Of a stretch of 36,204 nt of DNA, positions 790 to 26,406 are shown piece by piece. The stretch covers positions 1-36,204 of the IMG/VR virus record IMGVR_UViG_3300033153_005640; one strand, written 5' to 3'. Both the position numbers and the translations under genes were made by a program. The notes under the pieces are model-generated. The model was not told where the DNA came from. It was given only the letters and a program-made list of their open reading frames with translations, and searched no databases. The stretch is from a virus. Position 1 is the first letter of the stretch. Each line of letters starts with the position of its first letter.

Positions 790-1956
790 TTATTGGACAC
801 GTTGTGTTAAACTTTTGCAGGTTTGAGGACCTGCTTTACCGTCTACCTTTAATTGATCTACAGGTTCCGGATGTTCGTTGTTCCAGGTTTCCTGGAATGA
901 CTTAATAGCTGCTTTGGTCTTAGCACCGTACTTACCATCTACGGCTAAACGATGCCCTAGCTTTATAAGACACTCTTGTACCTTTTTTGTCGTTAATATC
1001 TTGGTCTCAGGATCCCGGTCACTATCCTGGGTCGGAGTTTCTTCTCCGTATTCAGGATTATCTACCTCATCGTATTCAAAGGACTCGATATCCGCTACCG
1101 CATTTGCAACCTTAACGTCGTACCGCTGTACGAAGGCGTACTGTTCGATAGGAATACTATCAAAGGCCGCATCATTTACATCCCTGTAAGGCCACAGAGG
1201 CCCCGTGTCCGTCTTACCCGACCTCCAGTCCGTGTGGGCACTCATAAAATCAGAGTCCATTTTACCAGGTAAAGCAGCTCGAATGATACGTTTGAGTTTG
1301 ATGTTACTGACTACCTGCTCCGTCGTATAGGGCTGCATTATCTTACAACCTCGGTAAGGCGGATTTAGACGTACCGGCGGTGCTGAAGTTACGAGTTTCT
1401 CGGGGAGAGGGCCTGCCCAATAATGCCACCTATCTGTTTTCTTGTCCTTGTGCAGGTTCCCTGCATTTACCATCTCGATAGCAATCGAGTCTTTATTCCT
1501 GTGAGGCTCGTGCCATGCACCGTGCATCAAAGGGATAAGATAAAAAGGATAGTCCTCGTACCCTAAAATGAAATGAGTAGATGCGCCGGCGTAACCCTGC
1601 TTACCGTTTTTCTTGGTAACCTTTTTAGAACTGAACCAACTTACGGTACGCCATTGATGAATACCCGCAGTAAAATGATCTACCCACCAGAGAGGCTCTT
1701 TGTCTTTCAGGCGGTTGGCGTTGTACTGTTTAGTAGGGTAGTGCTTGTAGAGACCTTTCTTATAGTTACGGATACGTTGGTGCGTATGGATGAATAGGGC
1801 ATCCAGGCAGTCTACCGCTTCTTCTTGAGTTAGGATCTGCGTTCCTGCTTTTGTCCAAAGGTCCCGCAACGTTTTCTCCGCTGCGTCAGATTTCTTAGCA
1901 ATCCTATTCCAAAAACTGGTACGACTAAGCTCGAAAAAATCTTCTAGCTGTTTCAT
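790..1956 (-). CDS. Endolysin: N-acetylmuramoyl-L-alanine amidase with peptidoglycan-binding domain
   Basis: This is a zinc amidase of the Amidase_2 / T7-lysozyme type, which cuts the bond between muramic acid and the peptide stem of peptidoglycan to release phage. Zinc ligands and catalytic residues fit the family: H94 in WVDHFTAG, the AWHEP segment at 147-151 followed by the family motif SIAIEMVNAG (E161), H241 in AHTDWR, and K248/D250 in SGKTDTGPLWP. About 80 N-terminal residues precede the amidase domain and are unassigned. Residues about 320-388 form a PG_binding_1 repeat (LAVDGKYGAKTKAAIKSFQ, then KVDGKAGPQT). There is no signal peptide, so a holin elsewhere is expected. The ATG at 1956 overlaps the nuclease stop (ATGA) with a GAGGA site upstream. 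Confidence 0.9.
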   Translation of the reverse strand: MKQLEDFFELSRTSFWNRIAKKSDAAEKTLRDLWTKAGTQILTQEEAVDCLDALFIHTHQRIRNYKKGLYKHYPTKQYNANRLKDKEPLWWVDHFTAGIHQWRTVSWFSSKKVTKKNGKQGYAGASTHFILGYEDYPFYLIPLMHGAWHEPHRNKDSIAIEMVNAGNLHKDKKTDRWHYWAGPLPEKLVTSAPPVRLNPPYRGCKIMQPYTTEQVVSNIKLKRIIRAALPGKMDSDFMSAHTDWRSGKTDTGPLWPYRDVNDAAFDSIPIEQYAFVQRYDVKVANAVADIESFEYDEVDNPEYGEETPTQDSDRDPETKILTTKKVQECLIKLGHRLAVDGKYGAKTKAAIKSFQETWNNEHPEPVDQLKVDGKAGPQTCKSLTQRVQ

Positions 1957-3138: not shown

Positions 3139-5142
3139 TTACTCCTTTAAGATTTTTGCTCGTGTGATAGACCGTTTTACGTTTGTATCTAAAATACATT
3201 CTTTTGTCCACGGTTCTACATTATTTTTTACACATAATGTAAATTCGGCACACACGACGCAGTTAATTTTCTGGGTTAAAGTTCTGGAGATATCCTGACG
3301 TAAGTCCAAAGCTTTTAGCTGTTGTTCTTCTAAAGTACCTCGGGCAATTAAGCGATAAATAATAGTTTTCTTTAGCTGGCCTATCCGATAGTTGCGTTTA
3401 CGGGACTGAAGCCAATCGTCCAACCTCCAGTTACGGGAGTAGTAGACCATGTACGCCGCTGCAGTTAGCGTGATTACAATGCCTGTCTGTATCTGGCCTA
3501 GATATACGGAGCAGGTTTTATCTGTTTGGAATACCGTAGCATGGTCTTTAATATGCCCGGAGTTAGAACCGTCTACTCGAACGTATTTCCATTTATGTTT
3601 AGCCAGTAGGGCTGTAATGTCGTTAAGTTCTGCTTTAAAGTTAGCCCAGATGATTACCTTGTGTTCCGGGTTATCTAGAAGGTCTATTAAAAGGTCTTCT
3701 AGTGCTTTTAACTTGGGATTGTCTTTATAGTTATGCTGTTCACGCTCTCCGCCTCCTTGAATACAGTTCGGGGCTCCGGGTTGTGTCCCAGTAGACACAC
3801 ACTCCATTAAGCGTTCGCAATTATCGCAGATAACCGTGTTTTTAGGTTTGTATACAAAACCACTACATAACTGTAATAGCTTATTCAAACGGTTGGCGGC
3901 ACTGAGAGGTACCGGATCTTCCCCAGGAAAAAGAAATTCTTCGTGGTTTACGGCGTAATTATAATCCTTGATCTGAGGTTTACTCAAAGCGAACATAATG
4001 TCCACCTCCTGTTGGGGCGGAAGATCTACGCACTCATTCAAGGCTCTCTTGGACGTGATAGGATCCATGATACGGTTCAACTCATCTAGGTTCGTATACC
4101 CTGTTACGATGTGTTTATGGTAAGGAGAGAACGTAACGTACTTCTTACAGAATCGAGGCCAGTCAGTCCCTACGATATAAGGAGCCAAAAATTGTAGCTG
4201 AGGGTACAGATCCCGGGGATCGCCTTGAGATATAGTACCGGTTAAGAGATACCTACGTACTGCGTTACGCGATAGCTTAAGCACCGCTTTAGTCTGTTGG
4301 CTTCTGATGTTTTTAATCCTATGACTCTCATCGGCTACGATAATATCGTAGTGTAGGTCTGATATCCATTGAGGTCCGCGTGTCTGTAGAATCTCTTCCA
4401 CTTCTGCACGGATTTCTTTTAGGGGCCGATGCTTTACCCACTCCTGGGCTAGTCTCTTCTGGTCTGCGGTGTTATTGATTCTACGTAGTAAACGTACCAA
4501 TCCGTCGGAAGGAATCACCAGAGGTGGGAATACTTTTTGAGTAGCCGCGAACAAAGTAGGCACTGCATGGTTCCGAACAATACCGTAGCTGGTGATTAGA
4601 AAAGACGCGGATGTTTCTTTAAACTCTGTCATCCTACGGAACTTTGCTTTTGCGTCTCCTTTCAAGACTATAGAACTGAGTTGACCTCCCGTGTGGAGCT
4701 TAATCTCCGCCGCCCAGTTTTCTAAGCCTACTACTGGACATAGGATCAAAGCTTTTTGTTTTAGTTGGTGGACTGTATCGATGACTACTTTACTCTTACC
4801 AGTACCCATTTCACATTCCAGAATATAACGATAGTTGTGTAAGAGCGTATGAAGATCTTCCAGTTGGTGCGCGTAACTTGGAACTACGGGGTCCTGTACC
4901 GGACGTCTCTCGTGCTCCTCCACTCGTTTAATCCAAGCAGCCGCTTCCTCAGAAAATGTATAATGGTCATTTACTTTCGGGAAATCATGTAGTACGTTTA
5001 TTAGAAAGGGAGGAAATGCCGGAAAGACCCAAGTATTTTGGCGCTTAAGGAACGTGGCGCCGTATACGCGAGACCACCCATGATTGGATGCTGCTACTGT
5101 GAATAAAGGTAGATTGTTAATACTTATAACGTTTATTTGCAT
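3139..5142 (-). CDS. SNF2-family DEAD/DEAH helicase
   Basis: This 667-residue superfamily 2 protein carries the SNF2/Rad54-type motor. Motif I is EMGTGKSK (111-118), motif II is ADESHRIKN (270-278), motif III is LLTGTIS (299-305), motif IV lies at KVIIWANF (495-502), and motif VI is RKRNYRIGQ (581-589), the form typical of SNF2 ATPases. A Cys cluster between the two RecA lobes (C439, C442, C448, C460) suggests a zinc finger, and a second pair (C628, C631) sits near the C-terminus. The first 90 residues are an unassigned N-terminal domain. It would translocate on duplex DNA and remodel replication or transcription complexes. It is the first gene of the leftward operon, with an AGGAG site before the ATG at 5142. 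Confidence 0.9.
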   Translation of the reverse strand: MQINVISINNLPLFTVAASNHGWSRVYGATFLKRQNTWVFPAFPPFLINVLHDFPKVNDHYTFSEEAAAWIKRVEEHERRPVQDPVVPSYAHQLEDLHTLLHNYRYILECEMGTGKSKVVIDTVHQLKQKALILCPVVGLENWAAEIKLHTGGQLSSIVLKGDAKAKFRRMTEFKETSASFLITSYGIVRNHAVPTLFAATQKVFPPLVIPSDGLVRLLRRINNTADQKRLAQEWVKHRPLKEIRAEVEEILQTRGPQWISDLHYDIIVADESHRIKNIRSQQTKAVLKLSRNAVRRYLLTGTISQGDPRDLYPQLQFLAPYIVGTDWPRFCKKYVTFSPYHKHIVTGYTNLDELNRIMDPITSKRALNECVDLPPQQEVDIMFALSKPQIKDYNYAVNHEEFLFPGEDPVPLSAANRLNKLLQLCSGFVYKPKNTVICDNCERLMECVSTGTQPGAPNCIQGGGEREQHNYKDNPKLKALEDLLIDLLDNPEHKVIIWANFKAELNDITALLAKHKWKYVRVDGSNSGHIKDHATVFQTDKTCSVYLGQIQTGIVITLTAAAYMVYYSRNWRLDDWLQSRKRNYRIGQLKKTIIYRLIARGTLEEQQLKALDLRQDISRTLTQKINCVVCAEFTLCVKNNVEPWTKECILDTNVKRSITRAKILKE

Positions 5143-5201: not shown

Positions 5202-6929
5202 ATGGCGAATGAATTTGACTTGTCAGACCCCTTTGCAATGAGTAATCCTAGGAGGTCCGGACTACATTCCAGCCCCTACGATTTACACAGTCAGCTATAC
5301 ACTCCTCGTAGATTAAAAGAACTGTTCAAATGGTGTGAATTTCTCTTCTATAACAGTCCTCAAATCTACGCCGCACTCCGTAAATTCGGAGAATATCCTA
5401 TAACGGATTTTACTTATGAGACGTCAAATAGTTCTCTTAAGAAAAAATATAAGAATCTACTGGAAACCACACTGAGAGCTCGGGAACTCTTAGTTGAAAT
5501 GACTATGGACAAGTACGTATATGGAAATGCCTTTATCTCTATGTACCAACCCTTCCTACGGTATTTGAAATGTCCTAAGTGCAACTCCCTGACAAACATC
5601 AAAAATCTATCGTATGAATACTCCTATGACAAATTACAGTTTCGGTATACGTGCCCTAACTGTAAAAAGTCTGTAGTGGCGGGCGAGAAAGAGGTGGAAG
5701 ACCGCAAGCTCGCAATTAGCAGAGGGATTAATTTTATTCGATGGGATCCTAAGCTCATGGATATCGACCACAATCCTATTACAGCTCAGTCCATCTACTA
5801 TTACACTATTCCTCCTGAATTAACTACTCGCGTACAGCATGGACACCGTAGTTTGATTGACACGCTACCCTTGAGTTTCTTAAAGACCATAAAAGAGAAG
5901 AAGCACTTTAAGTTTGCACCCCAAGCCATCCGACATCTAAAAGTAGGTGGGCCTGCAGGGGTTAGTCCTCAGTGGGGCCTTCCTCCTACACTCCCAGCTC
6001 TCCCCATGTTCCATTTTGTAGCCGCGCTACGTAAAGCTAACGAGGCAATTGCCTTAGATTACATGGTACCGTTACGTGTCGTACACCCCGGACGCGGTGC
6101 TAGTCCGATGGATCCAGTTACATCTATTAGCCTGGAGAACTGGAAGGACAATATGAAAGCGAGTTTTGGAGAGTGGCGGAAGGACCCTCTTCATATAATG
6201 TTCGCACCCATTCCAGTTGAAACTGCGCAAATAGGCGGACAGGGTCGTGCCTTATTGACCTTGGGCGAAGTACAGGAAGCTGAAAAAGGAATGATCTCTT
6301 CCCTGGGAGTACCTATTGAATTCATCTACGGAGGTTTAACGGGCAAAGGGATGGAAGCTACATTGCGTCTCATCGAGAACCAGCTACAGACACACATTGC
6401 AGACCTAAAAGATCTACTCCAGTGGGTTGCCGATAGCTGTGCCAAGTTCTTAGGCTGGCCTAAAATAAAAACTGGGATGACACCTTTCCGTATTACTGAT
6501 GACTATATGCAAAAGCAGATCATTATGCAGATGTATATGCAGGGTATTCAAACTGGCGACCAGACTATTTCTGATACTACTATTACCGAGTTGAATAACA
6601 TCGACTTGGACAAAGAACGGGAACGTATTAAACAGGAAGCATTGGATAAAGTACGAGCACAGCAGGAGCTGGAGCTGGAAATTAAGAAGATCCAGAATAA
6701 CATGGCACAGCAGATTCAAATGGCCGCACAGGAAGGAACTGTTTCGTATGACCAACAACAGATTATCGGTCAAGCTGATCAGATTGTAGCACAGTTAATG
6801 ACTCTTGACGCCGGAATGCGTAAGAGTCATCTGGATGCATTACAGGTTGAAGACTACATCTTATACTCGGTCGTAATTCAACGAATGGAACAACAGGAAC
6901 AAACTCTGCAAGGTCAAGGAGGCTACTAA
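5202..6929 (+). CDS. Portal protein with zinc-ribbon insert
   Basis: The 575-residue protein has the look of a phage portal, the dodecameric ring at the head vertex through which DNA is packaged and ejected. Support: size, position as the first gene of the structural arm, the VYGNAFISMY segment typical of portal N-terminal regions, a stem-like portion (GVPIEFIYGGLTGKGMEATLRLIE) and a long Gln/Glu-rich C-terminal coiled coil from about residue 460. A four-Cys zinc ribbon (C124, C127, C151, C154) is inserted in the N-terminal half. The ATG has an AAAGGAG site. Assignment rests on pattern rather than a single diagnostic motif; another head-vertex protein is the main alternative. Confidence 0.75.
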   Translation: MANEFDLSDPFAMSNPRRSGLHSSPYDLHSQLYTPRRLKELFKWCEFLFYNSPQIYAALRKFGEYPITDFTYETSNSSLKKKYKNLLETTLRARELLVEMTMDKYVYGNAFISMYQPFLRYLKCPKCNSLTNIKNLSYEYSYDKLQFRYTCPNCKKSVVAGEKEVEDRKLAISRGINFIRWDPKLMDIDHNPITAQSIYYYTIPPELTTRVQHGHRSLIDTLPLSFLKTIKEKKHFKFAPQAIRHLKVGGPAGVSPQWGLPPTLPALPMFHFVAALRKANEAIALDYMVPLRVVHPGRGASPMDPVTSISLENWKDNMKASFGEWRKDPLHIMFAPIPVETAQIGGQGRALLTLGEVQEAEKGMISSLGVPIEFIYGGLTGKGMEATLRLIENQLQTHIADLKDLLQWVADSCAKFLGWPKIKTGMTPFRITDDYMQKQIIMQMYMQGIQTGDQTISDTTITELNNIDLDKERERIKQEALDKVRAQQELELEIKKIQNNMAQQIQMAAQEGTVSYDQQQIIGQADQIVAQLMTLDAGMRKSHLDALQVEDYILYSVVIQRMEQQEQTLQGQGGY

Positions 6930-7440: not shown

Positions 7441-7563
7441 TACAGCCATATGAGCCACGGGATAATCCTTGCGATAGTGATTAACATTCAGTTCCTTTCA
7501 GTTAGATGTTTCACTATATTCTTATACCAAATTAGTCTATACTTTTGACACTTGGAGGATCTG
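7415..7563 (+). promoter_or_regulatory. Leader region upstream of the RNA polymerase gene
   Basis: This 149-bp gap is the longest gene-free stretch in the window. After the terminator it is AT-rich, and TATACTTTTGACACTT lies at 7538-7553, just before a GGAGG ribosome site (7554-7558). The same 16-base pattern, with changes, occurs at 17315-17330 and 18853-18868 in two other long gaps (11 of 16 positions identical in all three). It could be a -10-like element or a promoter for the phage polymerase. I see no matching -35 box here. Confidence 0.35.
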
Positions 7564-10500
7564 ATGGCTGAACTAATTCCCATGATGACGGACCCGGGTC
7601 AACGACGTAAAATGATTAAACAAAAGATCTTGGACGGGCTTGCGGAATCTTTCCCTATGCAGTCACGTAACAAGACTATTGAGCTTGCTGACCTGCAATA
7701 TCAGGAGAAGGACTATAGTTCGAGCGAACAGAAGAAAGCAATCCTTGAGGGGAGCTCCTTAAATGAAACAGTAAAAGGCACTGTAATAGTCCGAGACAAA
7801 GAAGGGAAAGTTATCGACAAGGCGAAGAACTTCGTACTGGCGCGAGTTCCTTATTTCACCCCGCGACATACTTTTATTCTCGAAGGGAATGAGTATTCAG
7901 TTTCAAATATGATCCGGCGTAAGCCCGGAGTTTACGCACGTAAAAGAGCCAATGGAATTCTAGAGGCCTCGTTCAATACGCACGGAGGTAAGAACTTTCG
8001 TATAAGTATGGATCCTTCTAAAGGTGAACCTCAGTTAGAATACGGCGCTACTAAAATCCCTTTATATCCAATCCTTAGACGTACCGGTATGTCTCATGAT
8101 CGTATTGCACAGTCATGGGGTCATAAGCTCACAGACGCAAACCAGAAAAATCTCTACCATAAAGCGGATCAAGCGGTAGATAAGCTGTACAAGAAAGTAC
8201 TACCTGAATATCGAAGAGACAGCGCTCACACCCCCGCAGATCAGATGGATGAGGTTGTCAAAGACTATACCCGCGCTGCGATGGATCCCGACGTGAATGT
8301 ACAGACACTAGGTAAGGGCTATAAAAATGTTACGCCGGATAGCCTATTAGATGCCTCTTCTAAAATACTTCGGATCTTTAAAGATACCGATGAAGTAGAT
8401 GACCAGGATAACCTTGATTTCAAATACATGGTTTCAGTGGACGATTTATTCAAAGAACGTATCAAGTTGGACGCACGGGACATTGCAAAGAAACTCACGA
8501 TAAAGATGGAAGCTACCCCCGAGGTAAAAAAGGTATTACCTGCAGGTCCTTTCTCTAAGGGCTTACGTACATTTATAAACACGTCACAGTTGGCATCTAT
8601 CCCTACACAAACAAATCCTATGGAGCTTATTGATTCGGCTGTACGAGTAACATCCTTGGGCGAAGGGGGTATCTCCACGGAACGAGCAGTACCTATTGAA
8701 GCCCGACAGACTCACGTAACTCAAATTGGAGCGTTAGATCCCATCCGAACCCCTGAATCTTTTAGGGCCGGTATCGATATTCGAGCAGCTATGCTGGCAC
8801 AGAGAGACGCCAAAGGGAATATTTATGTTCCTATTTACGACGTAAAGACTAATAGGCGTAAGCACATACGCGCGGGAAAGCTCCAGACAGCGGTAGTTGC
8901 ATTCCCTAACCAGAAGCTAAGAGGGACCGTTGACGCAGTAGTAAACGGCGTAAACCGTAGAGTCCACGCGTCGAAGGTTGACTACCAGATACCTCATGCC
9001 TCGTTCATGTACAGCCCTACTACAAACTTAATTCCTTTCTTGGAATCAGCTCAGGGTAATCGTGCAGTTATGGGTTCCAAGATGCAGGTACAAGCACTGT
9101 CTCTGGTAGACAGAGAGGAGCCTTACATTCAGGTGAAGGCGCCCGGGAATGCTTCTTATGAGCAGCTGATGGGCCACATCATTAATCCCGTCTCGCCGGT
9201 GGCGGGGACGGTCGCAAAGATTGATAAGGATTATATTTACATACAACCTGAAGCTACGAAGGTCGGAGCGGCTACGCTAAAGAGAGATGCGAAATACGTA
9301 AAGGTTCCTTATGATACCGATTTCCCTTTAGCCGCTAAGACTTATTTGAATCACAAACTTGGAGTAAAAGTTGGAGACCGTGTTAAGCCTCAACAGCTTT
9401 TGGCGGATTCAAACTTTACACGTAACGGCACCTTAGCTCTTGGCAAAAACATGCGAGTAGCGTTCATGCCTTACTACGGCGCGAATTCAAACGACGCTGT
9501 AGTTGTAAGCGAAGGTGCCTCGAAAAAACTAACATCGGAACGTATGTACAAGGTGGTTATCCCCCGTGATGCGGATCTTACATTCAAGAAAACGAAGCAT
9601 CAGTCCTATTACGGGCACGGCTACACTAAAGACCAATACAAACCTTTGGATGACGAGGGTGTTCCTACGCCAGGATCTAAGATACTACCAGGTAATCCGG
9701 TCGTGGTAGGTTTACGTAAGACACAACTATCCGCTGATGACATGATTTTAGGTAAACTTCATAGATCCCTGGTACGTCCGTACAGTGAGTATACTAAAGT
9801 CTGGGACCATGACCATACTGGAGAAGTTGTAGACGTCGTTAAGACTCCCAAACGCATAGCCCTTACGATTAAGACGCGGGAGCCGGCGGGCATAGGTGAC
9901 AAACTATGTTACACTGAAGACACTGAAGTTCTTACTACTGAAGGGTGGGTGCCTGTCGCGGAGGTAGGTCCTCGTACAGTTTGTTATACGTTGAAATCTT
10001 CCGGAGCTATAGAGCTGCAGCTACCTACAGGGCTGTACTACTACCCTCAAGCAGGTGAATTATATGAACTAGATTCTCAACAGGTTAAATTACGTGTTAC
10101 ACCTAATCATGACCTGTACGTAAAGCCTCGGGGCGCCTCTAAGTACCAGCTCAAACCCGCACGGGAAACAATACATAAGCGTGTCAGGCATAAGAAGAAC
10201 GGTAAATGGCTGTCAACAACTCCTGAGGTTGTCACGCTCCCTCCGGTGTTACGGAAGACCAGCGGGCGTATAGCTAAAGTGCTTCAACCTATTCCAACCC
10301 TAAATTGGTGTAAGTTTCTAGGTACCTATTTAGCCAATGGAAGTTTTATAATTCATACTCGTAAGGATAGGAATCAGAGTATAGAATATCGTACTCAAAT
10401 TCATACAGTTAAAGGGCAAAAACATAGTGTCTCCGGTGATCAGTATACGTGGATACAGCAGATCATCTCAGAGTGTAACTTTAAAGGACAGCCTCGAAAG

Positions 10501-12999
10501 GATCGCCACAATATTTCGTCGCGTCAGTTGACAGAGTACGTAGCGCAGTTCGGACACGCACAGGATAAATTTGTACCGCCGGAGATTTTTACCTGGGGCG
10601 CCGATGCAGCTCAAGCAATACTCGAAGGTTTAATAGGGTGTGATGGCCATGCTACCGAAAGTGGTAGTTTAGGATATACTACTACTTCCAAACAGTTAGC
10701 TGACGATGTTCAACGTCTTGCCTTGCACGCGGGTTACGCCGCTAACATTAAAAAAACAATTCCGGATAACCCGAACTGGAGTGCCCGGTACACGGTAGGA
10801 ATTGTAAAGCACAAGTTGACTCCTCAAATTAACCACGGACACGCCCAAACTCAGAACGGACAAACTGAGAGGATTATTGAGTCTATAGAACCGGTATGGG
10901 GTATCACTGTTCCAAACCATGTCTTATACGTTCGTGTAAAAGGGGTACCTGTTTGGTCAGGTAATTCAGGTAGATACGGAAACAAGGGAGTTATCTCCAG
11001 GATTATTCCCGACGGCCAAATGATTCAAGACGAGAGAGGTCGTCCTGTAGATATTTTGATGACGTCTGCAGGAGTAGTATCCCGTATTAATCCTAGTCAA
11101 ATCTTAGAGACGGCCATAGGTAAGGTGGTAGAGAAAACAGGGAAGCCTATTTTGGTTGAGAATTTTGCCAGAAAGGACAATACTGCGTGGGCTAAAAAGC
11201 TGTTGAAGGAGCACGGAATTAAAGATAAGGAAACTGTATTTGACCCTGTTTCGGGTAAGAAAATTCCCAAGGTATTCGTAGGTAACCAGTACATCATGAA
11301 ACTCTTTAAATCTACCGATACTAACTACAGTGCCCGAGGAGTACCTGATAGCTATGACCTCAATCAGCAACCTACTAAGGGAGGGGTACATAGCGCCAAG
11401 GTACTTGGTAAAATGGAGTTTGACGCTCTGGTAGGTCATAATGCTCGGAACATTCTGAAAGACGCAGCTACGATTAAGAGTCAAAAGAACGACGAATACT
11501 GGAGAGCTATTCAGTTAGGCTACCCCACACCTCCGCCACGTACCAGTTTCGCATATAATAAATTTTTGAATATGCTTACAGGTGCAGGCATAAAGATAAA
11601 TCGGGATAAGAACCTCGTATCACTAGCACCTCTTACTGACGAGGATGTATTAGCACAGTCTTCAGGTGAAGTGAAAGACTCTAAGATCGTACAGGCTAAG
11701 AATTTGAAGCCCGAGATTGGAGGTCTCTTCGACCCTGCGATTACTGGAGGTTTGAAGGGCGAAAAGTGGAGCCACATCGCATTAGCAGAACCTGTGATAA
11801 GCCCCGTCTTTATAGATCCGGTTAGACGACTCCTGGGTTTAACCACGAATCAGTTGAATACAGAGTTGAAAGAAAAGGGTGGGGCGCATATTCAACGACG
11901 GTTAAAACGTATTAACGTTGCGGAGATGGAAAAGGAACTCTTAGGTCAGATGCGCCGCAAAAAAGGAACACCCCTGGACTCCGACGTCAAGAAGGTTAAG
12001 TACTTACGCGCACTTAAATCCAGGGGGCTGACTCCGGATAAAGCGTACATCGTATCTAAGATACCTGTAACTCCTCCGGTTACACGTCCTGTTCTACCTA
12101 TGCAGGGGAGCCAGCAGATCATATACGGCGATGCGAATCCTCTGTATCAGGATTTAATTTACATCAACAATCAGCTCAAAGACGTTAAGAAAAATAAAAT
12201 ACTGATAGGAGAAGAAGAGAAGCTACGGCCTGTACTCCAGGAGGCAGTAGGTGCGGTGTACGGAACCAATGATCCAGTAACTGCGAAATCCCAGGCCCGA
12301 GGACATAAAGGATTTTTGACATACCTGGCCGGAAAAGGGAGCCCTAAGTTCGGGTACTTCCAGTCTAAAATAATGAAACGTACCCAGGACGTTGCAGGTC
12401 GAGGTACGATTGTTCCAGACAGCACTCTGGGGATTGATGAAGTAGGTCTTCCAGAAGATATGCTGTGGTCTATGTACGATAAATTTGTCATCCGGCGACT
12501 GGTTCAGACGGGGCAGCCAGCACTCCAGGCAAAAAAGATGGTTAAGGATCGCCACCCGGGAGCGCGAAGTCATCTGATGCGCGAGATACAGGAACGTCCG
12601 GTACTCATCAATCGTGCTCCTACACTACACCGTTACAACATTTTAGCGTCTACCCCTAAACCAATACCCGGGCATACGATTAGGATTAATCCCTTTATAG
12701 AGAAAGCCCAAAATGCCGACTACGACGGTGATACTATGATGGTACACGTTCCTGTCAGCCCAGCGGCGGTGGAAGAATCTAAAAACCTAATGCTTTCAAA
12801 CATCCTTTTTAGTGATAAGTCTAAGGGAGATCTCTTAGTCTTCCCCCAACATGAAGCTATCATGGGCATCAACCATGCGGCGTCCTTAGACCTTAAGAAC
12901 AAGCCAAAGGTATTTAAGAATAAAGCTGAAGCGATGTCGGCGTATAATTCAGGTAAGATTGGATTAGGTACGCGCGTAGATATAAAGGAGGTGTTATGA
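7564..12999 (+). CDS. RNA polymerase beta subunit fused to N-terminal beta-prime, with intein
   Basis: This 1811-residue protein is a multisubunit RNA polymerase chain: nearly all of beta followed by the first part of beta-prime. Beta landmarks in order: GNEYSVSNMIRRKPGVYARK (about 106-125), LDPIRTPES (about 390), NRAVMGSKMQVQAL (about 499), KNMRVAFMPY (about 627), GDKL then, after the intein, SGRYGNKGVIS, and the C-terminal MEFDAL region (about 1284). Beta-prime begins near residue 1350 (LVSLAPL), with KPEIGGLFDP, INRAPTLHRYNIL (about 1682) and the Mg-binding loop NADYDGD (1717-1723; Asp 1719, 1721, 1723). The usual N-terminal beta-prime zinc ribbon is absent. The chain ends shortly after the active-site loop; the rest is encoded at 14934. 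Start: ATG 7564 after GGAGG; an upstream TTG is less likely. Without the intein the product is 1458 residues. Confidence 0.93.
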   Translation: MAELIPMMTDPGQRRKMIKQKILDGLAESFPMQSRNKTIELADLQYQEKDYSSSEQKKAILEGSSLNETVKGTVIVRDKEGKVIDKAKNFVLARVPYFTPRHTFILEGNEYSVSNMIRRKPGVYARKRANGILEASFNTHGGKNFRISMDPSKGEPQLEYGATKIPLYPILRRTGMSHDRIAQSWGHKLTDANQKNLYHKADQAVDKLYKKVLPEYRRDSAHTPADQMDEVVKDYTRAAMDPDVNVQTLGKGYKNVTPDSLLDASSKILRIFKDTDEVDDQDNLDFKYMVSVDDLFKERIKLDARDIAKKLTIKMEATPEVKKVLPAGPFSKGLRTFINTSQLASIPTQTNPMELIDSAVRVTSLGEGGISTERAVPIEARQTHVTQIGALDPIRTPESFRAGIDIRAAMLAQRDAKGNIYVPIYDVKTNRRKHIRAGKLQTAVVAFPNQKLRGTVDAVVNGVNRRVHASKVDYQIPHASFMYSPTTNLIPFLESAQGNRAVMGSKMQVQALSLVDREEPYIQVKAPGNASYEQLMGHIINPVSPVAGTVAKIDKDYIYIQPEATKVGAATLKRDAKYVKVPYDTDFPLAAKTYLNHKLGVKVGDRVKPQQLLADSNFTRNGTLALGKNMRVAFMPYYGANSNDAVVVSEGASKKLTSERMYKVVIPRDADLTFKKTKHQSYYGHGYTKDQYKPLDDEGVPTPGSKILPGNPVVVGLRKTQLSADDMILGKLHRSLVRPYSEYTKVWDHDHTGEVVDVVKTPKRIALTIKTREPAGIGDKLCYTEDTEVLTTEGWVPVAEVGPRTVCYTLKSSGAIELQLPTGLYYYPQAGELYELDSQQVKLRVTPNHDLYVKPRGASKYQLKPARETIHKRVRHKKNGKWLSTTPEVVTLPPVLRKTSGRIAKVLQPIPTLNWCKFLGTYLANGSFIIHTRKDRNQSIEYRTQIHTVKGQKHSVSGDQYTWIQQIISECNFKGQPRKDRHNISSRQLTEYVAQFGHAQDKFVPPEIFTWGADAAQAILEGLIGCDGHATESGSLGYTTTSKQLADDVQRLALHAGYAANIKKTIPDNPNWSARYTVGIVKHKLTPQINHGHAQTQNGQTERIIESIEPVWGITVPNHVLYVRVKGVPVWSGNSGRYGNKGVISRIIPDGQMIQDERGRPVDILMTSAGVVSRINPSQILETAIGKVVEKTGKPILVENFARKDNTAWAKKLLKEHGIKDKETVFDPVSGKKIPKVFVGNQYIMKLFKSTDTNYSARGVPDSYDLNQQPTKGGVHSAKVLGKMEFDALVGHNARNILKDAATIKSQKNDEYWRAIQLGYPTPPPRTSFAYNKFLNMLTGAGIKINRDKNLVSLAPLTDEDVLAQSSGEVKDSKIVQAKNLKPEIGGLFDPAITGGLKGEKWSHIALAEPVISPVFIDPVRRLLGLTTNQLNTELKEKGGAHIQRRLKRINVAEMEKELLGQMRRKKGTPLDSDVKKVKYLRALKSRGLTPDKAYIVSKIPVTPPVTRPVLPMQGSQQIIYGDANPLYQDLIYINNQLKDVKKNKILIGEEEKLRPVLQEAVGAVYGTNDPVTAKSQARGHKGFLTYLAGKGSPKFGYFQSKIMKRTQDVAGRGTIVPDSTLGIDEVGLPEDMLWSMYDKFVIRRLVQTGQPALQAKKMVKDRHPGARSHLMREIQERPVLINRAPTLHRYNILASTPKPIPGHTIRINPFIEKAQNADYDGDTMMVHVPVSPAAVEESKNLMLSNILFSDKSKGDLLVFPQHEAIMGINHAASLDLKNKPKVFKNKAEAMSAYNSGKIGLGTRVDIKEVL
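9907..10965 (+). other. Intein with LAGLIDADG endonuclease in the beta catalytic motif
   Basis: A 353-residue in-frame insertion (Cys782 to Asn1134) interrupts the universally conserved GDK-x-(A/S)GRxGNKG motif of beta, so that GDKL precedes and SGRYGNKG follows. Splicing blocks are visible: block A starts CYTEDTEVLT, block B has TPNH (the TxxH motif), block F is VWGITVPNHVLYV, and the end is VWSGN followed by Ser. The penultimate residue is Gly rather than the usual His. Two endonuclease motifs are present: LGTYLANGS (first acidic residue replaced by Asn) and LEGLIGCDGH (Asp kept), so cutting activity may be reduced. Polymerase should be inactive until splicing restores the two catalytic lysines' motif. 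Confidence 0.93.
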
Positions 13000-13401: not shown

Positions 13402-14934
13402 ATGCCCTACCTCTCAAACGCACAACGTAAAGCTATCTGGGCACGGCGTAATGCTGCCGACAAAGAAGTTGTCATCGATAACGCTCAGACCAAACAGAAG
13501 CTTACCAAGGGCGACGTAGGGCAATACTATGGAGACCCTCGTATACGCGAAGAGCTTATTAAGGGCTTACGGAACCGAGACCTCCTGGCAGTTATGTCCC
13601 GTAATCCGGATAAGCATATCTTCAAACGATACGAAGCCAAAAATAAACCGCTTCGAGTACAGGGGGAAGACGACCTATCTCGTTTTGTAACTCGAAGGTA
13701 CACGGAGTTCCACCCTACCATCGGAAAGAAGACTAAAGAAATCTGGGTGGATATTGATTCAGGTAAAGACCTAACTACCGGTACACTTAAGCCTCTTACT
13801 CAGGAAGTATCTACTCTTGTAAAACGGATGCCGGAAGTAGCGAATACGAACATAGCCTTCTCAGGGGGTGATGGTTTTTATGTCCGAGGTCTTTTGAAGC
13901 GGACTCAAAGTACTGACCGTATGCGCTCACGACTCAAAGAAGAGCTAGCAGAACTCGTAAAGAAACACAAACACGTTACGATGTCACCGCCCGCTCCTGA
14001 TGAAGTTCGGTTAGATATTTCTACACTACACAACAAAGGTTCTATTCGAGCCCCTTACTCTCTGAACGCGGAGACAGGATTAGTATCGGTTCCAGTTACC
14101 TCGAAACAGCTACCTACTTTTAAGCCTACTCGAGATGCTCTCCCTGCGAATGTCATTAAGAATCTGAAATACTTCGCCCCGGGAATACCGAAGACTAAGG
14201 TGACACGGGAGATACCTACGCAGCAGGAACAAAGTCATTGGACTCTCGCCGTTCAGGAGCATAAGGCTCAACGTGCAGGCAAACATTGGGACGTTCGTCT
14301 TGTAGATCCTAACACCGGATATGCCCATTCCTGGGCGGTACCTAAAGCTAGGATGCCAGAGGAAAAAGCGTTACTGGCGATCCAGCAACCGACACACACA
14401 GCAGACTACGCCCTCAATTTTGGTTTAGGGGCTCCTAAGATTATTGGAAAAGGTTACGGGAAAGGCTCCGTAGAAATAAAACACAAGGAACCCGTAAAGG
14501 TGTTAAAATCTACCCCGGACTACGTTAAGTTCGAACGACTTGAAGATGGAGTCCCAAAGAACTATATGTTAATCAGGACTAAAGACACGTCCTGGATTAT
14601 GAAGAAGGGTTCGACTATGAAAAAAACAGCAAATCAAATAGCAGATGCGGTACTTTATAAGGTAGCGCTCCTACCGAAGAACCCCTCGAATAGGGTGTCA
14701 ACAAAACCTTCTTCTTTTGAGTTACAGGCTCCCCTAAATGCTCAGGATGAACAGGCTCCTGCAGGGCTTTTAGCCGGCGCTCTTAACGACATTGAGGTTC
14801 CTCCTAAACGAGAAGGTACTCATAATAATTCAAGTCGTGGGATCTCAGCGCGCTTGAATGCGCCTACTTCCTGGGGGGCGTCTACGTCACTTCCTTCTAA
14901 TACAAATAATTCACCTGTTTTAGGACAGTTCTAA
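13402..14934 (+). CDS. AEP-type primase domain fused to LigD-type 3'-phosphoesterase
   Basis: The 510-residue protein joins two nucleic-acid enzymes. Residues about 50-245 resemble archaeo-eukaryotic primase small subunits: metal motif WVDIDSG (D117, D119), a FSGGDGFYVRG loop (153-163) where the family usually has SGxxGxH (here Tyr in place of His), and D205 in VRLDIS followed by KGSIRAPYSLNAETGLVSV, a hallmark stretch. Residues about 276-402 match the 3'-phosphoesterase domain of bacterial LigD, with all expected catalytic residues: H287, H295, D297, R299, H332 and Y336, plus HSWAVPKARMP. The tail (403-510) starts with MKKTANQIADAVLYKVA, the helix seen at 12996, then is disordered. It may prime synthesis or repair DNA ends. 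It lies between the two beta-prime genes. Confidence 0.8.
   Translation: MPYLSNAQRKAIWARRNAADKEVVIDNAQTKQKLTKGDVGQYYGDPRIREELIKGLRNRDLLAVMSRNPDKHIFKRYEAKNKPLRVQGEDDLSRFVTRRYTEFHPTIGKKTKEIWVDIDSGKDLTTGTLKPLTQEVSTLVKRMPEVANTNIAFSGGDGFYVRGLLKRTQSTDRMRSRLKEELAELVKKHKHVTMSPPAPDEVRLDISTLHNKGSIRAPYSLNAETGLVSVPVTSKQLPTFKPTRDALPANVIKNLKYFAPGIPKTKVTREIPTQQEQSHWTLAVQEHKAQRAGKHWDVRLVDPNTGYAHSWAVPKARMPEEKALLAIQQPTHTADYALNFGLGAPKIIGKGYGKGSVEIKHKEPVKVLKSTPDYVKFERLEDGVPKNYMLIRTKDTSWIMKKGSTMKKTANQIADAVLYKVALLPKNPSNRVSTKPSSFELQAPLNAQDEQAPAGLLAGALNDIEVPPKREGTHNNSSRGISARLNAPTSWGASTSLPSNTNNSPVLGQF
14617..14667 (+). other. Internal copy of the KTA-type tag helix, possible second start
   Basis: Codons 406-422 of the AEP-phosphoesterase gene encode MKKTANQIADAVLYKVA, 11 of 17 residues identical to the N-terminus of the protein at 12996. 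Because the same motif begins other proteins, the ATG at 14617 could be a relic of a gene fusion or a second translation start producing a 105-residue tail protein. Only a weak AAGGG lies upstream, so I favour fusion. Confidence 0.4.
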
Positions 14935-16736
14935 TGGCAGACGGCGGAACTTTCGGACGCTACCTATTAAATGAATATTTACCTCGTAAATATCACATAG
15001 GTAGTAACGCAGATAAAAAAGACATCAATAAAAAGATGAACGTTTTCGCACAGAAGGATCCTAAAGAATACATTCGAGCTATCCCCAAACTAAAAAAGGT
15101 AGGAGATCATTTAGCCACTACTGAGGGTCTATCGGTAGGACTAGACGACATAACTCCTGACTACCCTCGACGTAATCCATTGATGCAGAAGTTTGTACGC
15201 CGGTTTGATACCTCTACAACGGACGCTCAACGTAGCCGCGTAGCAGAGCAAGCTCAAACTGCCTTCATAGGTATTGCTTTGGACCATCCAGGATCAATGA
15301 CACAACAAGTGAGCAGTGGCGCCCGGGGGAACACAGTACAGTACTCTAAAATAGTAGCAGGCCCTGCTAACGCACGTGACGCGCAAGGGAATACAGTTCC
15401 CTGGTTGATTCGTAATTCATATAGTGAGGGTTTAACCCCTGCGGATTATTGGGCGGCAGGAAATGAAGCTATCCTGGACACAATCAAAAGTACGGTTTCA
15501 GTGTCGGAACCTGGGGAACTTTCAAAGATACTTATCAACAATATGAGTGATATTATTGTTACAGATACGGATTGTGGGACTACCAACGGGATCGTAAAGT
15601 CGGTCAACAGTAGCAATATAATAGACAGGTACCTGGTACGGAAGACCGGACCCGTTAGTGCAGGTACTTTGATCACCCCCGACGTCCAAAATCGTCTCAT
15701 ACGTACACGTAAAGATAACATTATGGTACGGTCCCCTATGACATGTGAAGCTCCAGACGGTGTCTGTCAGAAATGCCAAGGACTGGATGAGAGAGGTAAC
15801 GCACAGGAATTCGGTACGAACGTAGGTATTCGTGCAGCTCAAGCGTTATCAGAACCTTTGATTCAGTTCGCCTTAAATGCGAAACACGGGGTGCGTACAG
15901 CTGAATCGGAACGTGCACAGCTACAAGGCATTTCTGGTTTTCGTCAAATTATTGAGTCACCAAAACAGTTCTTACACAAGGCGACTCTAGCGGAAGAAGA
16001 CGGTAAAGTTACCCAGGTAGCTTCAGCGCCCCAAGGCGGACACTACGTACACGTAGGTAAGACCAAACACTACATTAATCCTAACATCAAAGTACTCGTC
16101 AAAAAGGATTCCACGGTTGAACGCGGAGATCGTTTAGGTGAAGGTATCCCTAAACCGGATGAAATTGTGAAACATAAAGGTTTGGGTGCAGGACGTCTTT
16201 ACATGGTAGACCTTCTTAACAATCTCTATAAGACCCAAGGATATAACCTAGACCAGCGCCATTATGAGCTCTTAGCTAAAGGCGAACTCAACTACGCACG
16301 CATTTTACAGGACCCTAGTAATAAGTTCATCCCGGGAGATATAGTCGGATACAATACGTTACGCGCAGAGCTGGGAAAAGACACAAAGGAAGTTTCATTA
16401 CAGGACGGCTTGGGTGAAACCTTAGGTAAAAATTATCTTCATTTTTCTGCGGGCAGTAGGGTCACACCTTCAATGGTAAAGACTCTTGACAAAGCTGAGG
16501 TTAAAAATCTACACATCGCACCCCGCGCGCCAGAGATTGAATTCGTCATGAAGCCTGCAACCCGCGCACCTCTTTTACATCCTGATTGGATGGCACGCTT
16601 GGCACATAGGAATTTAAAAGCTACAATTCAACAGGCTGCGCATTTTGGAGATATTTCAAATCTCCACGGAACTCATCCGGTACCTGCGTACGTACACGGA
16701 GTTGACTTCGGCAAGGGTGAGAAGGGACGTTACTAA
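14934..16736 (+). CDS. RNA polymerase beta-prime subunit, C-terminal part
   Basis: This 600-residue protein continues beta-prime exactly where the gene at 7564 stops. FGRYLLNEYLP (7-17) and TTEGLSVGLDDI (62-73) match the region just after the active-site loop in bacterial RpoC. SGARGNTVQ (128-136) and YSEGL (163-167) follow. The second zinc site is complete: C214 (TDCGTT), C271, C278 and C281 (CEAPDGVCQKC). The trigger-loop region reads SEPLIQFALNAKHGV (306-320), keeping the catalytic His (H318, E. coli H936) but with Asn315 where E. coli has Arg933. The bridge-helix core is very divergent. The C-terminal clamp part (KGLGAGRLYMVDLLNNLYK) is recognisable. TAATG overlap with the preceding gene implies coupling. 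Confidence 0.92.
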   Translation: MADGGTFGRYLLNEYLPRKYHIGSNADKKDINKKMNVFAQKDPKEYIRAIPKLKKVGDHLATTEGLSVGLDDITPDYPRRNPLMQKFVRRFDTSTTDAQRSRVAEQAQTAFIGIALDHPGSMTQQVSSGARGNTVQYSKIVAGPANARDAQGNTVPWLIRNSYSEGLTPADYWAAGNEAILDTIKSTVSVSEPGELSKILINNMSDIIVTDTDCGTTNGIVKSVNSSNIIDRYLVRKTGPVSAGTLITPDVQNRLIRTRKDNIMVRSPMTCEAPDGVCQKCQGLDERGNAQEFGTNVGIRAAQALSEPLIQFALNAKHGVRTAESERAQLQGISGFRQIIESPKQFLHKATLAEEDGKVTQVASAPQGGHYVHVGKTKHYINPNIKVLVKKDSTVERGDRLGEGIPKPDEIVKHKGLGAGRLYMVDLLNNLYKTQGYNLDQRHYELLAKGELNYARILQDPSNKFIPGDIVGYNTLRAELGKDTKEVSLQDGLGETLGKNYLHFSAGSRVTPSMVKTLDKAEVKNLHIAPRAPEIEFVMKPATRAPLLHPDWMARLAHRNLKATIQQAAHFGDISNLHGTHPVPAYVHGVDFGKGEKGRY

Positions 16737-24071: not shown

Positions 24072-24343
24072 GAAAGACAGCGGCACATATTGTTGAAGAG
24101 ATTTTAGTAAAGTACGCGGAAAATCTCTCTCCGTACTCCACAAAAGAACCCCCTCCAGTACCGAAGGTGTTACCAAGCCACGCGGACCAATACCCTCAAG
24201 CACTAGACCCGCATATGCGTAGAGCGAAAGAAAAGAGAGGACCAGCACCAAACCCTCGAACTACTACTAAGCCTGTAACGCCGATGGATACACTTAAATT
24301 GAAGTTTGCGAGAGTAGGACTACTCAAAGGAATTCTCACTTGA
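24068..24343 (+). CDS. Proline-rich protein with KTA-type N-terminal helix, 91 aa
   Basis: The N-terminus MRKTAAHIVEEILVKYA matches the tag helix at 12996 and 14617. After it the protein is Pro/Lys/Arg-rich and probably disordered (KEPPPVPKVLPSH, EKRGPAPNPRTTTKP), ending in LLKGILT. It is translated from the first 19-bp repeat and its stop overlaps the next start (TTGA). The composition (short helix, then basic disordered tail) fits a small DNA-contacting internal protein. No family is recognised. Confidence 0.65.
   Translation: MRKTAAHIVEEILVKYAENLSPYSTKEPPPVPKVLPSHADQYPQALDPHMRRAKEKRGPAPNPRTTTKPVTPMDTLKLKFARVGLLKGILT
24321..24339 (+). repeat. 19-bp direct repeat carrying a ribosome site, copy 2
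   Basis: This is the second exact copy of the repeat at 24049-24067. It encodes the end of the 91-residue protein, supplies AAAGGA and lies directly before the TTG start of the prohead protease gene. The spacing from ribosome site to start codon is identical in both copies, which supports the TTG start. Confidence 0.9.
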
Positions 24344-26406
24344 AGAAGATCATACACCTGGATCCTTATTTTCCTACGGGAGAGCTTACGATACAGCCTG
24401 TAATGCTTTGGTCTAGAGGTAGGTCTTTTATTGAGCCTATTACAAAGCATGCCAGTGTGGGTGCGGATTTTTTCAAAACGATTCAACCTGTTCCAGGACA
24501 TTCCATCGTTTATGTTTTAGCTGTAAGCGCTTGGGAAGCGTACGCAGAAAACAAGAATGGGGACGGCTTCCCCGAATTTCCTTACATGGAATCTGCGAGT
24601 CCTCCGTGGATTGCGGCGGACGAAGTATTATCCCAGCACTATAAATCTTTTGAAACTTACGGATATAATTACAGACACCACGTAAACAAGGATCCAAAAA
24701 AAGCTGTAGGCAAAGTGATAAAGGCTTTTTGGAATCCCCCGATGCACCGTGTAGAGTTGCTTATCGACTTAGAAGACGCGAAGGCTCCTGATCTAGCAGA
24801 ACGAATTGCTTCAGGAGAATACCCTCCTGTTAGTATGGGTACTCGTGTCAAATATGACGTATGTAATATTTGCGGGAATCGCGCCCCTACTCGAGCGCAG
24901 TACTGCGACCATTTGAAATATCAGATGCGGGAGATACTTGCCGACGGTCGAAAGGTCTGTGCATTAAATCCGTCTCCTAAATTTTTTGATATCTCCTGGG
25001 TCTTTAAACCCGCTGATATCAACGCCTACATGATGAAAAAAGTTGCAGAACCTGTAGCGTACGATCTTCTTTCGGGCGCAGCTGCGGGTGAGTATATTGA
25101 TGAGATGGATGATTTAAAAATAGCATCTCATAAATTGGCGGTAATGGATAAGGTGGTTCAAGGGATTCCGGTGGACGCTAAGTCTGAGAATATTGATGAA
25201 ACCGAATTAGCTAATATGGTAAAGATGCGTACAGCCATTCTCACTGCCGGCGATAATACTCCAGACTTGCCTGACGATGTATTGAAAAGCTTATCAGGTT
25301 TCGGACTACCCAAAATACTATCTACGATGTTCTCAGGAGGTATGATGCTTAATACCCCTGAGTTTATGAAGGTCGTACTCTTTAAATCAAACCCTAAAAT
25401 GCAATTAGGAGACGACCTTTTGGATAAAAGTGTCTTAATGCAGCGTCCTATCTTAGAGCTATTCCAAGATCACCCTCAGCTATTGGAGCAGTTAGAGTGC
25501 GACGATCATTTAGGTCTCACCCCCGAGAATGTAGATATTAAGGTTGCGGAGTTACTGGATCCCTATTTTGAAAAACGCTCGGCCATTAGTGACTACCTTT
25601 CCCGTCGTTTTATACCTGACTCCTTTCGACCTATGACGTCTGGACGCGCTACACAACAGCTTTCGTTAACAGATCCTGCTACGGGTAGGTCTTACGGTAC
25701 GACTCGAGGCGCGGCTATTAACGCACACGACGAAATTGCGAAAAGAAATATTTATAAGATACTAGGAGGTACCGCGTTACTTGGGGGTGCTTATAAGGTA
25801 ATAGGAAGTGGTTTAACTCGTAGGGGTTTAGGTAAGATGAAGCCCTTGATGGGCCTTACACTAGGTGCTCTAGGCGTTTCACAGTGGCCGAATATGGGTA
25901 AACACTATATGACAGACCAAGGTATCCCCGTTCCTACGATGACAGAGCTTACTCCCAGTAAATACGCGTCAGGGTGGTCTATGCCTTTAATGGGAACGTT
26001 GGGCACTATGGCTCTTTTAGGACATGACTACACTTCTCGGCTGCAAAGGGGTGAGCCTGTAGGACACCCTGCGTTACCTTTATCTCGTCGTATTTTAGAT
26101 CGGCTCGGACAGACTGTACAGGACCATCCTTTGTTATCTGCCGCAGGAGGCACTCTTCTACTCCGTAAAGGACTACGCGGACGACCTGCACAATTTTTAA
26201 AACATAAAGCGGTACAGCCCGCTATGAATTACGGACGTGCAGCATACAAAGATGTACGCGGGTCATTGAAAGATTTCGTAGAAGGTGTGAAAATTTCTTC
26301 ATGGCTTGAAAAAGAATTACCACAACCCTCGGGAACAGTAATGCTCCCGGAAATTGATATAGACAGACTTGCAGAAAAAATTGGAGAGATAATTGTTGAG
26401 GGTTGA
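24340..26406 (+). CDS. Prohead protease fused to a long C-terminal region
   Basis: The N-terminal ~230 residues look like a caudovirus prohead protease, the serine enzyme that matures capsid proteins: ENKNGDGFPEF (70-80), H113/H114 in YRHHVNKDPKKAVGKV (the catalytic-His and Gly-x-Val context), and S165 in YPPVSMGTRV (the vSxG catalytic-Ser motif). A zinc-finger-like C175, C178, C189, H191 follows the serine. At 688 residues it is far longer than usual proteases; the C-terminal part has Gly-rich hydrophobic stretches (ILGGTALLGGAYKVIG, MGLTLGALGVSQWP, SAAGGTLLL) and a final amphipathic helix. Start is TTG 24340, matched to the repeat-borne ribosome site. The C-terminal part may be a scaffold or membrane region. 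Confidence 0.75.
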   Translation: MKKIIHLDPYFPTGELTIQPVMLWSRGRSFIEPITKHASVGADFFKTIQPVPGHSIVYVLAVSAWEAYAENKNGDGFPEFPYMESASPPWIAADEVLSQHYKSFETYGYNYRHHVNKDPKKAVGKVIKAFWNPPMHRVELLIDLEDAKAPDLAERIASGEYPPVSMGTRVKYDVCNICGNRAPTRAQYCDHLKYQMREILADGRKVCALNPSPKFFDISWVFKPADINAYMMKKVAEPVAYDLLSGAAAGEYIDEMDDLKIASHKLAVMDKVVQGIPVDAKSENIDETELANMVKMRTAILTAGDNTPDLPDDVLKSLSGFGLPKILSTMFSGGMMLNTPEFMKVVLFKSNPKMQLGDDLLDKSVLMQRPILELFQDHPQLLEQLECDDHLGLTPENVDIKVAELLDPYFEKRSAISDYLSRRFIPDSFRPMTSGRATQQLSLTDPATGRSYGTTRGAAINAHDEIAKRNIYKILGGTALLGGAYKVIGSGLTRRGLGKMKPLMGLTLGALGVSQWPNMGKHYMTDQGIPVPTMTELTPSKYASGWSMPLMGTLGTMALLGHDYTSRLQRGEPVGHPALPLSRRILDRLGQTVQDHPLLSAAGGTLLLRKGLRGRPAQFLKHKAVQPAMNYGRAAYKDVRGSLKDFVEGVKISSWLEKELPQPSGTVMLPEIDIDRLAEKIGEIIVEG

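Follow-up and report, generated by a model that had tools for sequence, protein, structure and literature searches.

An intein of 353 residues interrupts the RNA polymerase of a phage. It lies in the window analysed here (the whole of the 36,204-base linear IMG/VR virus record IMGVR_UViG_3300033153_005640) and splits the motif GDKL^SGRYGNKG between the two catalytic lysines of a polymerase in which beta and the beta' N-terminal half form a single chain. The reading to which we give a probability of about 0.9 is that of a class 1 intein with a LAGLIDADG domain, which excises itself from between the active-site lysines and is selfish, without a regulatory role.

The intein and its host polymerase

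The polymerase open reading frame runs without stops from a TTG at 7552 to 12999 (1815 aa). Counted from the ATG at 7564, the precursor has 1811 residues, and removal of 353 leaves 1458, which reproduces the chain lengths given in the preliminary description. The Pfam matches Rpb2_3, Rpb2_6, Rpb1_1 and Rpb1_2 place RNA polymerase domains on both sides of the insert and bear out the earlier identification of a phage fusion polymerase, whose chain joins beta to the N-terminal half of beta'; the NCBIfam likeness to rpoB/rpoC consists of matches that are all under the curated cut-offs. The features are as follows.

5202-6929, plus strand: portal protein gene upstream of the polymerase (matches the Arash portal with 30% identity across 499 aligned positions, E 2e-92)
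7555-7559, plus strand: GGAGG, likely ribosome-binding site read in the sequence, with the start ATG 7564 downstream
7564-12999, plus strand: gene for the fused RNA polymerase chain (beta and the first half of beta'), split by the intein (ORF, Pfam, NCBIfam)
9895-9906, plus strand: end of the N-extein, GDKL, with the first catalytic lysine at 9901-9903 (alignment of relatives, conservation)
9907-10965, plus strand: intein, 353 aa (splicing residues, fold, Pfam LAGLIDADG_3, empty sites in relatives)
9907-9909, plus strand: Cys1, first nucleophile (Cys in all 16 same-site inteins)
10099-10110, plus strand: splicing block B, Thr65-Pro-Asn-His68 (T..H in 16 of 16 same-site inteins)
10312-10347, plus strand: LAGLIDADG motif 1, KFLGTYLANGSF, with Asn144 (10336-10338), which is Asp or Glu in more distant relatives
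10618-10650, plus strand: LAGLIDADG motif 2, ILEGLIGCDGH, with Asp246 (10642-10644) kept
10894-10944, plus strand: splicing block F, VWGITVPNHVLYVRVKG, with Gly332 and His338; Cys (or Asp) stands at the Gly332 position outside the clade
10960-10965, plus strand: intein C-terminus Gly352-Asn353, with a penultimate Gly, not His
10966-10989, plus strand: start of the C-extein, SGRYGNKG, with +1 Ser at 10966-10968 and the second catalytic lysine at 10984-10986
12712-12732, plus strand: NADYDGD, the beta' catalytic aspartate motif, unbroken in the window and occupied by another intein in relatives
14934-16736, plus strand: separate gene for the C-terminal half of beta' (Pfam Rpb1_5; 30% identity to Arash Gp216)

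Between the two polymerase halves lies a LigD-type primase-polymerase and phosphoesterase-like gene (13402-14934), and an SNF2-type helicase gene (3139-5142, minus strand) is found close to the polymerase; helicases of this type have been linked with phage polymerases (PMC7824862, excerpt). An endolysin-like gene (790-1956, minus strand) and a head-maturation-protease-like gene (24340-26406) support a tailed phage. No tRNAs were found in the window.

The insert opens with CYTEDTEVLTTEGW and closes with VPNHVLYVRVKGVPVWSGN, its final residues being VWSGN, and Ser follows as the first residue of SGRYGNKG. The residue set of a class 1 intein is present in frame, namely C1, T65/H68, N353 and Ser+1. 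The Asp or Cys of block F and the penultimate His, which are usual and not strictly required in class 1, are absent, with Gly332 and Gly352 in their places. Class 3, which lacks a nucleophile at position 1 and has a W-C-T triplet in blocks B, F and G, was ruled out by the presence of Cys1 and by Gly at position 4 of block F. The 16 deduplicated same-site inteins are all stop-free and, besides the invariant residues listed above, all have Ser or Thr at +1; the terminal Asn is found in 15 of them (Gln in L084) and the block F His in 14 (Gly in L094 and L107). The L084 intein ends with Ile-Gly-Gln before Ser and has degenerate endonuclease motifs. An RNA intron was also discarded, as Rfam gives no match of any kind in the window and the insert is open in frame.

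The AlphaFold2 model of the insert, built from an eight-row alignment, has a pLDDT of 84.0 and a pTM of 0.83. Its top Foldseek matches are the inteins TliVMA (7qsu, E 1.7e-19), PhoVMA, PI-PkoII, PI-PfuI and PI-SceI, followed by the endonuclease I-DmoI. With VIA-align 2, the model superposes on 7qsu over the whole insert length (Z 25.2, rmsd 4.3, 307 aligned), on PI-SceI chains with Z 18.8-20.9 and on NpuDnaE, a Hint fold, with Z 16.0, while its endonuclease part aligns with I-DmoI at Z 13.8. TliVMA, PhoVMA and PI-SceI (7qsu, 7qst, 1vde) thus combine Hint and LAGLIDADG in one chain as the insert does; they share 12-20% identity with it in structural alignments and, in contrast, have V-ATPase exteins. 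Pfam LAGLIDADG_3 (PF14528) matches residues 236-301 (1e-10) and is the only LAGLIDADG match of the polymerase gene; Pfam Intein_splicing gave no match to the insert at E 0.01.

The preliminary description had put the insert at 9907-10965 within GDK-x-SGRYGNKG, and these coordinates proved exact. It had also counted the site among the most conserved of beta, in agreement with the 99.9th conservation percentile reached by the 12-residue motif GDKLSGRYGNKG among the 12-residue windows of the two aligned flanking stretches. Across 84 aligned relatives, neither the GDK lysine nor the GNKG lysine varies. In a profile alignment, the residue after the +1 Ser falls near position 1068 in E. coli RpoB chains, whose two conserved lysines are K1065 and K1073. 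Conserved lysines of the active centre touch the transcript backbone at -1/-2 (PMC7598289, excerpt). With the insert lodged between the catalytic lysines, the unspliced polymerase should be inactive.

Empty sites, trees and the endonuclease domain

A polymerase match was present in 117 loci (77 with an empty site, 36 with an intein, 2 with no motif and 2 with no coverage), a count in which duplicates and a piece cut from the window are included. Dropping identical sequences and one short locus left 84 rows, the window counted in, of which 16 carry the intein and 68 have an empty site, i.e. an uninterrupted GDKx-[S/T/A/C]xxxGxKG. Intein-free relatives, which the preliminary description had proposed to look for, are thus abundant and include the window's sister L027, whose site reads GGG GAC AAA CTG^GCG GGA CGG TAC. 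In all 16 carriers the insert stands at exactly the same codon boundary, so that chance does not account for it. Three carriers (L107, L109 and L110) came from an intein-seeded search. The polymerase-seeded scan, which took the best 80 of at least 500 confirmed relatives (79 of the 80 being classifiable), found the intein in 11 of 69 unique loci and none in the other 58; the carrier counts therefore describe the nearest part of the polymerase family only. By tblastn, intein-free homologues occur in Salmonella phage Arash and in Vibrio phages D69, D148 and D181, and the empty site was inspected in Arash, D69 and D181. Alanine at +1 is found at 27 of the 68 empty sites and in none of the 16 carriers (nucleophile versus Ala, Fisher p 0.0019, uncorrected for kinship).

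On the polymerase tree, the presence of the intein takes 12 changes, only slightly below the mean of 14.8 for shuffled labels, and 12-14 of 500 label shuffles reach as few changes as observed. The window pairs there with the empty L027 (support 98). In the intein tree, the window forms one clade with L015, L109, L017 and L021 (100/99), which L107 joins next (98/91). The polymerase data reject the first grouping (AU p 5e-45) and also the grouping with L107 added (AU p 1e-8); the intein of L107 is 57% identical to that of the window and its polymerase 51%. This patchy presence, together with the incongruent trees, indicates that the element was moved or lost repeatedly. Gain is hardly a better explanation of the distribution than loss, which would come about by recombination with empty alleles. 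Next to the site, carriers are no more alike in nucleotide sequence than elsewhere, third positions being probably saturated, so that no recent homing event is visible.

The insert has a LAGLIDADG-type fold and two motifs, with the acidic residue in motif 2 only (Asn144, Asp246). Asn in motif 1 with Asp in motif 2 is found in the window, L015, L017, L109 and L107; both endonuclease acids are lost in L002, L004, L006, L045 and L021. Compared with the window, the L002 group has identities of 0.43-0.49 for the splicing part and of 0.24-0.27 for the endonuclease part, whereas L015, L017 and L109 have 0.71-0.73 and 0.71-0.75, respectively. An endonuclease as conserved as the splicing domain is unlike simple decay. 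Judged by these identities, the domain is decaying in the L002 clade and is constrained in the window's clade despite the Asn. As Asn replaces Asp or Glu in motif 1, homing may be dead, and the insert can be called a LAGLIDADG endonuclease by its fold, its cleavage activity being doubtful.

Considering the Asn in motif 1 and the same-site clade that lacks both catalytic acids, the best fit is a mobile element whose homing cycle is over or nearly so. The polymerase would be translated as a precursor of 1811 residues; attack by Cys1, transfer to Ser+1 and cyclisation of Asn353 would excise the intein and join GDKL to SGRYGNKG, giving an active 1458-residue chain. The intein would persist because only its exact removal is tolerated at this position, and would spread through homing or when related phages recombine. 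The Asn in motif 1 may have weakened the endonuclease of the window's clade, in which the domain is still conserved.

Timing of splicing and other readings of the insert

The preliminary description had suggested that the intein could also act as a timing switch. In its full form, slow or conditional splicing would hold a virion polymerase inactive until packaging or injection, and the intein would have been selected for that. The Arash homologue was the most detected virion protein, with 3516 spectra, its beta' partner giving 1210 (PMC10585845, excerpt), so that the window's enzyme may, by analogy, be a virion polymerase; the Arash authors noted that abundance during infection could also account for the polymerase in virions (PMC10585845, excerpt). 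A precursor that should be dead, with the intein between its catalytic lysines, would suit such a switch, as would the two glycines, one penultimate and one at position 4 of block F. These characterise the window's clade, whereas same-site inteins outside it have Cys in block F. Four inteins (L002, L004, L006 and L045) moreover keep their splicing residues after losing both endonuclease acids, but a live polymerase would need the splicing residues in any case. However, the Arash polymerase is found in the virion without any intein, and the element is missing in the sister L027 and in the 58 of 69 unique relatives of the polymerase-seeded scan, a distribution that takes the 12 changes given above. 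The Bethlehem RDF intein of Kelley et al., a phage intein of class 1 with a penultimate Gly, had already spliced to completion at time zero in a reporter, and a Gly-to-His change at that position slowed it (PMC5050341, excerpt); the penultimate Gly is thus no sign of a slow intein. We consider the timing switch improbable, and a general regulatory role of the intein unlikely, though it may have one in particular lineages. It would be a similarly long shot to regard both halves of the active centre (GDK^...GNKG and NADYDGD^) as recurrent intein niches in which splicing serves as an activation checkpoint, a polymerase bound for the virion staying inert as long as its inteins are in place, with the unusual Gly/Gly pair setting the delay.

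A normal, lineage-specific polymerase domain that is not excised has next to no probability. Real domain insertions without intein character do occur elsewhere in this polymerase, at query residues ~570-585 (L051-L065; up to ~760 nt at 571 in L058) and, with 1.1 kb, at 234-240 in L101. Such an insertion would be at odds with the Hint and LAGLIDADG fold, the exact intein borders, the position between two invariant lysines and the 68 of 84 relatives that have a clean empty site. The preliminary description had named this as the finding that would undo it; in the alignment, intein-free homologues run straight across the site, which excludes a polymerase domain, and the precursor can be expected to need splicing.

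Hardly more credible is a decaying polymerase copy with a dead intein remnant in a phage that uses another polymerase, for which a 36-kb linear fragment leaves room elsewhere and to which the altered endonuclease motif 1 would be suited, since the gene has 1811 open codons with both catalytic lysines and NADYDGD, the gene for the C-terminal half of beta' is intact and Arash-like, and no same-site intein contains a stop.

Further inteins of the family and known systems

Beyond the window, the intein between the active-site lysines has counterparts, since inserts with intein features were found at five sites of the polymerase family.

GDK^S/T site: 16 rows
NADYDGD^T, beta' catalytic motif: complete in L018, L028, L030, L046, L054, L064 and L109; running off the locus end in L017 and L021
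Complete NADYDGD-site inserts: L109:7824-9299, L018:5182-6810, L028:7765-9249, L030:7765-9252, L064:7777-9243, L046:7771-9396, L054:8902-10395
RTPE^, fork region: L037, L052
TTPK^, in beta': L054
AAKKLT^, in beta: L128

The NADYDGD^T inserts have ~490-545 residues, begin with Ser or Cys and end with V[FYW]D before Thr, i.e. they are Asp-terminal. Among nine non-GDK inserts, Pfam LAGLIDADG_3 was matched by eight (E 0.01 or better), L052 having none, and Intein_splicing by four of those eight, with some matches under curated cut-offs. Complete inserts occupy both catalytic motifs in L109 and L054. The latter, a contig of 167875 bases, has three inteins in one polymerase gene (GDK, TTPK and NADYDGN sites), and a weaker intein-like match lies in another frame of 1006 codons. 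At L054:8881-8901 the N-extein reads NADYDGN (codon AAC), so that standard splicing would turn the third catalytic Asp into Asn; the enzyme may be dead, the sequence may contain an error here, or the junction may be an unusual one in which the Asp is retained at the insert's distal end. The single-site framing of the preliminary description was thus too narrow, as other core sites and the RPB2 of a eukaryotic-type virus (L119) are occupied as well.

L119 is a viral contig whose RPB2 (Pfam Rpb2_1 to Rpb2_7) is interrupted at GDKF^SARHGQKG by a related intein of 29% identity (L119:5001-6044). RPB2 is likewise the carrier in L118 (GDKMA^SRSSQKG) and in L120 (DDKIH^SRA, with a TFIIB gene adjoining). 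We infer that all three are nucleocytoplasmic large DNA viruses; L118 and L119 show more than one Hint or intein match each. Their inteins cluster with that of phage L128 (100/98), apart from the phage GDK inteins. The AU test speaks against a placement of the L119 intein within the phage GDK clade (p 0.0205, the group having been picked after seeing the tree), and with it against one origin of the phage and eukaryotic-virus inteins of the same site. A single clade of all phage GDK inteins is not rejected (AU p 0.226), with L094 falling elsewhere in the tree. The grouping with L128 makes the site common to phage and viral RPB2 look like repeated targeting rather than one transfer. Terminases as well as bacterial and archaeal proteins also contain related inteins, and a recognisable RNA polymerase host was seen in none of the 30 related-intein genome loci examined (of 31).

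Penultimate-Gly inteins of mycobacteriophages are likewise of class 1, with Cys1 and a homing endonuclease, and sit in important phage genes (PMC5050341, excerpt); those in nucleotidyltransferases match the window's intein with ~24-25% identity (tblastn). The present intein differs from those described there by its RNA polymerase host and by the Gly at block F position 4 in its clade. The RPB2, RPA2 and RPC2 inteins of eukaryotes and large DNA viruses also occupy conserved core sites near the active site, in the second-largest (or largest) RNA polymerase subunit (PMC1635734, excerpt), and Bodo saltans virus has inteins in polr2a and polr2b (PMC5871332, excerpt); one viral RNA-polymerase-subunit intein ends with TGN (PMC1635734 and PMC5871332, excerpts). 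The GDK site is likely allelic with the viral site of PMC1635734, as far as the excerpt describes it. Compared with these RPB2-type inteins, the host here is a bacterial-type beta/beta' fusion of a tailed phage. Green-algal chloroplast RpoB inteins share the bacterial-type beta, in a cellular organelle and not in a phage (PMC5784728, excerpt).

Among phages, Arash, D69, D148 and D181 have a homologous fused beta/beta'-N polymerase without an intein. The Arash-type protein is 35% identical over 80% of the query (tblastn), the uncovered part being the intein, and Arash shares with the window the split of beta' and the order portal, small gene, polymerase. Unlike its D69 counterpart, the homologous D181 gene is interrupted by a group I intron (L010:16518-16798) that contains a homing endonuclease gene. 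Disrupted polymerase ORFs are reported for zeta crAss-like phages (PMC7886860, excerpt), and a polymerase gene of N4 type is reported to include an HNH endonuclease (PMC5418858, excerpt). A Lak-phage match that seemed to extend past the intein into the flank was set aside, since the flanks proved different.

The intein class is a known one, and the open-access literature holds no description that we could find of an intein in a multisubunit RNA polymerase of a tailed phage, a weak kind of evidence that covers open access only. The case is notable for its place and for the repeated invasion of the family. It adds a phage RNA polymerase of the multisubunit type to the essential proteins exploited by inteins. 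In annotation, such intein-bearing genes can easily be mistaken for genes with odd domains. As alleles of similar enzymes exist in nature with and without the intein, the cost or benefit of an active-site intein is directly testable. Finally, the invasion of both catalytic motifs, with up to three inteins in one gene, and a target site common to tailed-phage and eukaryotic-type viral polymerases bear on the concentration of inteins at active sites.
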